Part shown: piece by piece, positions 2,310-44,211 of the stretch
How the letters are laid out: every line of letters starts with the position of its first letter
Numbering within the stretch: the stretch's first letter is position 1
From: Pseudomonadota bacterium
GTDB lineage: Bacteria > Pseudomonadota > Gammaproteobacteria > Xanthomonadales > Rhodanobacteraceae
Length of the DNA: 64,000 nt
Assembly: GCA_021793195.1 (NCBI GenBank)
Contig: JAJYTG010000001.1
Coordinates: 1 to 64,000, forward strand
Direction: 5' to 3'
Made by a program: the position numbers and the translations under genes
Notes under the pieces: generated by a model
Databases searched by the model: none
The model's input: the letters and a program-made list of their open reading frames with translations, nothing else
What the model was told of the DNA's origin: nothing

Positions 2310-3113
2310 TCACTTTTTCTTGGGAAACGGGAGGATCATCGAAACCCGTCGGCGATACTGTTCGTACGCAGCGCCGTGATACCTCACCAGATCGCGCTCC
2401 TCGAACTGGAGGGCAATCAGGATATAAGCAGTCGTGGCGACGGAGAAAAGCAGATGGGCGGCCGACATGTGTGGCGTCGCCCAAAACGCGACGATGAAGC
2501 CCAACATGATCGGGTGCCGTACCAATTTATAAAGAAACGGTGTCCTGAAACCGATATTGGTGTACTCCTGACCTTTCATATTCAGATAGACCTGGCGCAG
2601 GCCGAACAGATCGAAGTGATTAATTAAGAAGGTGCCGATCAGCACAATTACCCAGCCTATCCAGAAGAGCACCCACAAGACATTGCGCGCCGCGACGTTC
2701 TCGACCGTCCAGACTACTCCATTCATCGGCTGCCATTGCCAGTAGAGCAGAATCAATGCGAGGCTTGACAGCAAAACATAAGTGCTGCGTTCGACTGGCT
2801 GTGGAACGAACCGCGTCCACCAACGCTTGAAGGCTGGCCGCGCCATGACGCTGTGCTGGACGGCGAAGACGCCGAGCAGCAGCGCATCGATCAGCAATGC
2901 CTGACCAAACGAACCCGGTGTGCCAGAATCAATCGACTTCGGCACAACCAGATTACCGACGAATCCAATCGCGTAGAGAAATGTTGCGAAAAAGATCAAA
3001 TAGCAAACCACACCGTACAACAGAGCAAGAGTGCGACCCATGACATAGCCCTCCGGTAGAAAGTAATTCATGGCCCAACTATTATTCGGTTGCGGAGTGG
3101 AGCCTGGTTCCAC
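2310..3113 (-). CDS. mddA: methanethiol S-methyltransferase-like / NnrU-family membrane methyltransferase; initiation may be at an internal ATG ([10 protein letters not shown]...)
   Basis: Multi-TM protein with ...[52 protein letters not shown]...[35 protein letters not shown]...[27 protein letters not shown]. Confidence 0.8.
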
Positions 3114-42489: not shown

Positions 42490-43161
42490 GTGAGCGCGCG
42501 CTGCGTCACGCTCGAGGCGGTGTGCCGGCGCATCGCGGCGGCGCAGGGCGATGGTCCCGGCGTGCGCCTGCTGGCGGTCTCCAAGAGGCAGCCGGCCGCC
42601 GCGCTGCGCGAACTGGCCGGCTGCGGGCAGCGCGCCTTCGGCGAAAACTATGTGCAAGAGGCGCTGGCCAAGCAGCGCGAACTGGCCGGACTCGGCATCG
42701 AGTGGCACCTGATCGGCCCGCTGCAGTCCAACAAGTGCCGCGAGGCGGCGCGGCACTTCGACTGGCTGGAAAGCCTGGACCGCGCCAAGCTGGTCCCCCT
42801 GCTGGCGGCCGCGCGCCCGCCGCAGCGGCCGCCGCTGAACGTGCTGATCCAGGTCAACATCGAGGGCGAGGCCGGCAAGTCGGGCTGCGCGCCGCAGGAC
42901 GTCGAAACGCTGGCACGGCAGGTGGCGCAAGCGCCGGCGCTGGCCCTGCGCGGGCTGATGGCCATCCCGGCACCGCACCCGGACAGCGCGCGGCGCGTGG
43001 ACGCCTTCCGCCGCATGCGCGCGCGATTCGAAACGCTGCGCGCGGAGTTCCCCGGCATCGACACGCTGTCGATGGGCATGTCCGAGGACTTCGAACTGGC
43101 CATCGCCGCGGGCGCGACCGAGGTGCGCATCGGCAGCGCGCTGTTCGGACCGCGCGGGTGA
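42490..43161 (+). CDS. yggS: YggS family PLP homeostasis protein
   Basis: RLLAVSKRQPAAALRELAGCGQRAFGENYVQEALAKQRELAGLGIEWHLIGPLQSNKCREAARHFDWLES...GMSEDFELAIAAGATEVRIGSALFG. Confidence 0.96.
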   Translation: MSARCVTLEAVCRRIAAAQGDGPGVRLLAVSKRQPAAALRELAGCGQRAFGENYVQEALAKQRELAGLGIEWHLIGPLQSNKCREAARHFDWLESLDRAKLVPLLAAARPPQRPPLNVLIQVNIEGEAGKSGCAPQDVETLARQVAQAPALALRGLMAIPAPHPDSARRVDAFRRMRARFETLRAEFPGIDTLSMGMSEDFELAIAAGATEVRIGSALFGPRG

Positions 43162-43165
43162 AATG

Positions 43166-43193
43166 CCGGGACTCGGGACTCGGGAAAAGTCCG
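43166..43193 (+). repeat. GGGACTCGGG-type intergenic repeat, left copy
   Basis: CCGGGACTCGGGACTCGGGAAAAGTCCG immediately after the yggS stop. Confidence 0.9.
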
Positions 43194-43308
43194 AAAATCA
43201 AATAACCAAGCACAAGCTCCTTGCTCCCGGCTCCCGCCCCCTCTGCCGATCCTGATTAACCCCTAGAATTCAGGGAACCCGGATGTCTCCGGATCGTCGG
43301 CTCCCAGC

Positions 43309-44211
43309 ATGAATTCGCTTCCACCCGAGTCCCGAGTCCCGAATCCCGAGTCCCGGGCATCTGTTTCGAGTCCCGAGTCCCGCACACCCGGCGCCATCGT
43401 CTTCCTCGGCGGCGGCAATATGGCACGCGCGCTGATCGGCGGGCTGCTGCGCGGCGACGGCGACGCCGCGCGCATCCGCGTCGCCGAGCCGCGCCCCGAG
43501 GCGCGCGACGAACTGGCACGGACGTTCGGCGTCGGCGTCCACGCGGACAACGCCGAAGCGGTACGCGGCGCCGCCCTGTGGGTGCTGGCGGTCAAACCGC
43601 AGGTGCTGCGTGAGGTCTGCCGCGGCCTGGCGACGCCGGCCCAGCGCGAGCGGCCTACGGTGCTCTCGATCGCCGCCGGCATCCGTTGCGATGCGATCGC
43701 AGGCTGGCTGGGCGGCGGCCTCGCGGTGGTGCGCGCCATGCCCAACACGCCGGCGCTGCTGGGTGCCGGCGCCACCGGCCTCTATGCCAATGCTCGCGTG
43801 GATGCCGCTGGGCGCGCGCACGCGGAACGCATCATGGCCGCGGTGGGCGCGGTCTGCTGGATCGCCGAAGAGGGCTGGATGGACATCGTCACCGCACTGT
43901 CGGGCTCGGGGCCGGCCTATTTCTTCCTGCTGGCCGAGGCCATGGAAGCTGCCGCGGTGGCGCAGGGTCTGCCGGCGGAAACGGCGCGCCTGCTGGCGGC
44001 ACAGACCTGCCTGGGCGCCGGTCGCATGCTGCGCGAGGACGGCGCCGACGCGTCCATCCTGCGCCAGCGGGTGACCTCGCCGGGCGGCACCACCCAGGCC
44101 GCGCTGCAGGTGCTGCAGCGCGGCGGATTCGCCGAACTGGCGGTACAGGCCGTCGCCGCGGCCGCGCGGCGCGCAGCCGAGCTGGCAGCCACGGCCGGGG
44201 CCGCGCCGTGA
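43309..44211 (+). CDS. proC: pyrroline-5-carboxylate reductase with repeat-encoded N-terminal extension
   Basis: AIVFLGGGNMARALIGGLL (Rossmann), VLAVKPQVL, RAMPNTPALLGAGATGLYA, SGSGPAYFFLLAEAMEAAA; extension MNSLPPESRVPNPESRASVSSPESRTPG. Confidence 0.95.
   Translation: MNSLPPESRVPNPESRASVSSPESRTPGAIVFLGGGNMARALIGGLLRGDGDAARIRVAEPRPEARDELARTFGVGVHADNAEAVRGAALWVLAVKPQVLREVCRGLATPAQRERPTVLSIAAGIRCDAIAGWLGGGLAVVRAMPNTPALLGAGATGLYANARVDAAGRAHAERIMAAVGAVCWIAEEGWMDIVTALSGSGPAYFFLLAEAMEAAAVAQGLPAETARLLAAQTCLGAGRMLREDGADASILRQRVTSPGGTTQAALQVLQRGGFAELAVQAVAAAARRAAELAATAGAAP
43324..43382 (-). repeat. GGGACTCGGG-type repeat, right copy in inverted orientation, within the proC ORF
   Basis: CCCGAGTCCCGAGTCCCGAATCCCGAGTCCCGGGCATCTGTTTCGAGTCCCGAGTCCCG; minus strand ATGCCCGGGACTCGGGATTCGGGACTCGGGACTCGGG. 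Confidence 0.92.

Follow-up and report, generated by a model that had tools for sequence, protein, structure and literature searches.

A dispersed heptamer repeat at the predicted N-terminus of the proline biosynthesis enzyme ProC

The proC locus and its heptamer array

We analyzed a 64-kb stretch of DNA (hereafter, the window) from a genome that we call G000. The genomes compared with it are given G-numbers and the loci extracted from them L-numbers. The proC gene, its upstream neighbor and the elements between and within them are arranged as follows:

42490..43161, plus strand: gene for a yggS-family PLP-binding protein, the upstream neighbor (GTG start; TIGR00044, 218.6 bits against a cut-off of 106)
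43168..43184, plus strand: G-strand heptamer array GGGACTCGGGACTCGGG, which follows the yggS stop by 6 bp and is the inverted counterpart of the proC array
43264..43269, plus strand: TAGAAT, putative -10-like box, in seven repeat-bearing species located 35-45 bp upstream of the proC start
43283..43312, plus strand: upstream ORF of 9 codons (MSPDRRLPA), found only in G000/G006 and G005, with a TGA stop that shares bases with the proC ATG (ATGA)
43309..44211, plus strand: proC, pyrroline-5-carboxylate reductase, 300 amino acids including the tail (TIGR00112, 267.5 bits, residues 30-292)
43309..43395, plus strand: putative repeat-derived N-terminal tail, residues 1-29, based on sequence, frame, relatives and pLDDT
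43327..43354, plus strand: four C-strand heptamers (GAGTCCC, GAGTCCC, GAATCCC, GAGTCCC; GAGTCCCGAGTCCCGAATCCCGAGTCCC) within the coding sequence
43368..43381, plus strand: two more heptamers (GAGTCCCGAGTCCC), inside a 36-nt in-frame insertion common only to G005 (and G006)
43396..43398, plus strand: ATC, the sole near-cognate start in the interval from ATG 43309 to the GGGNM loop, encoding the conserved Ile/Val of strand 1

The profile match of the 43309 ORF lies above the curated TIGR00112 cut-off of 196.75 bits and covers the whole profile (1-263 of 263), and the protein retains the Rossmann loop and the C-terminal motifs (GGGNMA, AVKPQ, MPNTPA, SGSGPAY and RVTSPGGT). By this full-length match and these motifs the ORF is ProC, with a predicted enzyme activity. 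The alignment with its best solved relative, 3tri, begins at residue 29. We considered that a second, normal ProC could make the copy at 43309 dispensable and rejected this, as the complete relatives G005, G008 and G011 each contain a single full match.

Translation from ATG 43309 gives MNSLPPESRVPNPESRASVSSPESRTPGAIVFLGGGNMA. There is no in-frame ATG, GTG or TTG from 43312 up to ATG 43420, which encodes the Met of GGGNM, and the 14 codons that separate 43309 from the preceding stop include no in-frame NTG in G000, which rules out a start farther upstream in this genome. No Shine-Dalgarno-like sequence precedes ATG 43309, and a scan of the proC locus found neither a consensus promoter (including a -35 box) nor an intrinsic terminator. 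The earlier note on this DNA had described the stretch from 43312 to the motif AIVFLGGGNMA as free of in-frame ATG, GTG and TTG, and we find the sequence and the coordinates as it gave them. Its conclusion that initiation at 43309 appears obligatory holds with a qualification: no NTG other than this ATG precedes the GGGN-M loop in frame, and ATC 43396 would be a possible, though weak, non-canonical start.

The note had also proposed that the residues following the ATG are encoded by a repeat, and the heptamers at 43327-43354 and 43368-43381 bear this out: together with short spacers, (GAGTCCC)n heptamers encode about codons 4/5-28 of ProC. Because the unit is 7 bp long, it is read as a cycle of seven codons, GAG TCC CGA GTC CCG AGT CCC, and as GGG ACT CGG GAC TCG GGA CTC on the opposite strand. 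Read directly, this cycle is free of stop codons and of NTG in every frame of both strands. An array of such heptamers is therefore passable in any frame and unable to start translation, and the lack of an NTG between 43309 and the enzyme core follows from the composition of the heptamer itself.

The 9-codon ORF is possibly coupled to proC in translation through the ATGA overlap. Frameshift entry into proC from this ORF was rejected, because the ORF terminates at the proC ATG and most relatives lack it.

The repeat family and gene starts in related genomes

Within the window, exact copies of GGGACTCGGG all lie within 43168-43381, on the plus strand after the yggS stop (43168-43184) and on the minus strand in the proC array, and matches with one mismatch are at chance level. 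Throughout G000, in comparison, GGGANTCGGGANTCGGG has 17 matches against 0 for a reversed control pattern, and the heptamer pattern has 61 matches in G005 and 86 in G008. The repeat is thus dispersed, as had been claimed, on the scale of the genome and not on that of the window. Its unit is mainly GGGACTC, with variants GGGATTC and GGGACCC. It is present in 8 of 12 genomes of the same genus and absent from G001, G002, G003 and G010.

Array positions in G000, G005 and G008 were compared with gene calls from a simple codon model, whose gene ends are not curated. In these three genomes, G-strand arrays typically start 1-40 bp past the edge of the left-hand gene and C-strand arrays often end 1-23 bp ahead of the right-hand gene, so that most arrays adjoin ORF starts in antisense or ORF stops in sense. 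The two-array geometry seen between yggS and proC recurs at many sites. An ATG lies just past the array in carB-like, guaA-like, nrdR-like and lpd-like genes (named by eye from their N-termini), and at most other sites arrays abut genes without entering the coding sequence. Arrays of 18-19 heptamers are found at contig ends in G005 (L159, end of C35; L162, end of C58), and the repeat probably breaks short-read assemblies.

The earlier note had suggested comparing the 5' ends of proC among close relatives. In this comparison, an ATG, an open frame through the array or a degenerate remnant of it, and the Rossmann strand occur in one frame in seven distinct genomes (G000, to which G006 is identical, G005, G008, G007, G012, G011 and G004). 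The array is degenerate in G012, G011 and G004. The stretch from ATG to GGGN measures 33, 33, 21, 23, 21, 21 and 24 codons in the seven species, and all four length classes are in frame although the repeat unit is 7 bp. TAGAAT is located 41-45 bp upstream of the proC ATG in six of the seven repeat-bearing species and 35 bp upstream in G004; G010 and G001, which have no array, carry TAGGCT 43 bp before the ATG. Since the ATG lies similarly far from the -10-like box whether or not an array is present, the start codon looks orthologous, with the array lying behind it, and the tail would thus sit between an orthologous start and the enzyme. ProC begins with MTDIAFIGGGNM and MTDIVFIGGGNM in the repeat-free G010 and G001, respectively, and has a tail of non-repeat sequence in G002 and G003. 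The four repeat-free genomes are exactly those of the genus whose ProC has no repeat tail, and repeat-tailed ProC is found in repeat-rich genomes. The proposed capture of a non-coding repeat as the ProC N-terminus gains support from the orthologous ATG, open frame and array kept before the Rossmann strand in seven distinct species. The ProC tree is compatible with a single origin of the repeat tail and with two changes alike.

A sequencing error hiding a nearer start, which the earlier note had named as a possible refutation, is excluded, because a second assembly (G006, JAJYTR010000016.1, MAG DX2.bin25) is identical to G000 over 6.9 kb and the distinct species G005 has the same ProC tail with 92% DNA identity. 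As a separate observation, G000 and G006 are treated as separate species yet are identical over these 6.9 kb (window versus L048); they are possibly near-identical or cross-binned MAGs.

Repeat-coded N-termini occur in two other enzymes. ThiD starts with an ATG followed by RVPSPQSPVPDVESRVPAVPVVLTIAGSDSGGG or close variants in G005 (L157:2135-2977), G008 (L202) and G006 (L203), and with a diverged version of the repeat N-terminus after a GTG in G009 (L207). None of these four genomes has a start codon between the array and the ThiD core VVLTIAGSDSGGG, and ThiD of the repeat-free G002 and G003 has start codons near PVVLTIAGSD. In an ArgE-type deacylase gene of G000 (L223, contig C7 near 43.8 kb), a GGGTCCC-type array is read as PRVPGPGSRVPSPVPSLLTAALQHLRALVAFDTRNPPR, and again no start codon lies between array and core. 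The ArgE-type gene of G008 (L179/L218) has a TTG after the array as an alternative start, and that of G005 starts with MNPLLASTLEHL, without the array. The sequence, the frame, their conservation over seven species and their recurrence in two more genes are direct observations. As far as can be read from the DNA, tail capture is a genus-level feature, seen again in ThiD and in an ArgE-type enzyme, and is specific neither to one strain nor to ProC.

Reading of the tail and its alternatives

The explanation that we consider very probable places the translation start of proC at ATG 43309 and takes the intervening (GAGTCCC)n array as coding for a tail, most likely a passenger on a normal enzyme. 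Translation would begin at ATG 43309, with an array of the dispersed heptamer family placed between this codon and the first Rossmann strand. The array would encode an N-terminal tail of some 28 residues rich in Pro, Glu, Ser and Arg, and, being free of stops and NTG, would join the downstream frame unbroken and supply no nearer start. It is initiation at ATG 43309 and the order of events that we infer here.

The ProC tail is predicted to be disordered: in an AlphaFold model based on a 20-sequence alignment, residues 1-4 and 6-25 have pLDDT values under 50, the core has values of about 90, and strand 1 spans residues 30-33. Across Xanthomonadaceae, ProC tails are unrelated and of low complexity, and their length ranges from a few residues to over 20; given this variability throughout the family, the enzyme evidently tolerates extra N-terminal residues. 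In the G000/G005 pair, pN and pS both equal 0.08 in the tail, compared to 0.18 and 0.43 in the core, all from tiny numbers. Predicted disorder, variable length, pN close to pS in this one pair and variable tails in the family lead us to read the tail as most likely a disordered passenger, tolerated by an enzyme that is normal in other respects, and to infer from them that it has no function.

Alternatively, translation could start at the non-canonical ATC 43396 (ATC or ATT in relatives), leaving the array as a 5' untranslated leader. At most other sites the array does end 1-23 bp ahead of the start codon, and the product, MVFLGGGNM, would resemble the MKIVFLGGGNM start of distant homologs. We regard this as improbable, because AUC initiation is very weak, the ATC corresponds to the conserved strand-1 Ile in homologs that start 2-3 codons earlier, and all seven species retain the ATG and the frame despite the varying length of the array. 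Moreover, repeat-free relatives have an orthologous ATG equally far from the -10-like box.

Another alternative is that the early-codon array has been retained for what it does as nucleic acid, with the peptide as a by-product: it could form a quadruplex or i-motif, or pair with the GGGACTC array after yggS in a hairpin that would hide proC on read-through RNA. The four G-rich units on the minus strand at 43327-43354 are, by sequence, a candidate G-quadruplex, the predicted fold of the read-through RNA pairs the yggS-end and proC arrays, and the two-array geometry is widespread. Furthermore, G000 and G005 share 88-100% identity over the block 43240-43395, which comprises promoter, leader and tail (92% in the tail and 100% in the promoter stretch), against 75-78% in the flanking yggS and the ProC core. 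Conservation above that of flanking coding sequence is not what a pure passenger tail would predict. The conserved promoter explains part of this identity, and array homogenization or selection at the nucleic-acid level may be behind the rest. On the other hand, G005 has a degenerate form of the upstream G array, G012 and G011 have none near proC, and in G007 it lies nearly 500 bp away; for this lack of conservation we rejected the hairpin between the two arrays as a conserved control. The degenerate proC arrays of three species and the failure to find a terminator-like site also argue against such a role, which we consider unlikely.

Recruitment of the tail for a protein function, such as an oligomer contact, localization or protein turnover, appears very unlikely: the tail is retained in seven species and similar Pro/Glu/Ser/Arg tails occur on three enzymes, but its length and sequence vary, pN is close to pS in the one pair with few sites, disorder is predicted and the tails of sister genera are unrelated. 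The chance that an assembly or sequencing artifact conceals a nearer start codon is negligible, since, even though long arrays do end contigs in G005, the DNA is identical in a second assembly, six other species have the same layout and the proC array has just 4+2 units, well within one read.

Beyond the passenger reading, start-abutting arrays might form a standing, genus-wide source of N-terminal sequence that ProC, ThiD and the ArgE-type enzyme absorbed repeatedly, some being kept because the array also controls expression by pairing with GGGACUC arrays in the 3' ends of other transcripts. This broader idea is speculative, and we hold it to be rather doubtful.

Relation to known repeats

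Heptameric quadruplex-forming repeats have been described in Xanthomonas and Nostoc (Rehm et al. 2015, PMC4692102). They are dispersed, usually in about four tandem units, at most 50 bp upstream of ORFs in antisense or at most 50 bp past stops in sense, and 7-11% of them at least partly overlap ORFs. The repeat described here resembles them in its G-rich 7-bp tandem unit, in its dispersal above chance (17 versus 0 in G000) and in the position of its arrays beside ORF starts (antisense) and stops (sense). It differs from the consensus given there, GGGNATC or GGGAATC, in that its unit is mainly GGGACTC. Arrays of GGGACTC and GGGAATC coexist in the relatives G029 and G036, which suggests that the repeat works like the Rehm family and that its unit is a variant. 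Genus-wide fixation as the N-terminus of a housekeeping enzyme is not described for the Xanthomonas and Nostoc repeats in the passages of that report consulted.

Rickettsia palindromic elements (Ogata 2000, 2002; reviewed in PMC10969869) are in-frame insertions in unrelated metabolic enzyme genes and are about 150 bp long, palindromic and presumably mobile. The arrays reported here are likewise in frame in unrelated metabolic genes (ProC, ThiD, ArgE-type); unlike those elements, they are short tandem heptamer arrays at the extreme N-terminus, with no 150-bp palindrome. Bacterial genes are enriched in simple sequence repeats close to their N-termini (Lin and Kussell, as quoted in PMC4692102). 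Like these repeats, the heptamer lies near a start codon and its unit is not a multiple of 3, so that a change in unit number would shift the frame. In contrast to phase-variable repeats, the frame is intact across seven species, the arrays are short and in some cases degenerate, and the gene is a housekeeping one; among the seven species compared, we found no change in unit number that switches the frame.

The locus thus combines two known things, a heptamer repeat family and the in-frame capture of repeats, in a combination that we did not find described in the literature searched. With relatives that have and lack the array, it offers a clean case of non-coding repeat DNA that would have turned into the sequence of a housekeeping enzyme, and it suggests a route: a repeat with no stop or start codons in any frame, placed against start codons. 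Repeat DNA becoming protein is not a new mechanism, and here it probably adds only a floppy tail. The case is also a warning that automatic start calls in repeat-rich Xanthomonadaceae may err in either direction.

Two further ProC starts were seen along the way. In Pseudoxanthomonas sp. NC8 (L112), the stretch examined has no nearby in-frame NTG before the Rossmann loop. In another Lysobacterales MAG (L053, near position 3001), the ProC tail consists of MTSAS five times, in 15-bp units that each contain their own ATG.
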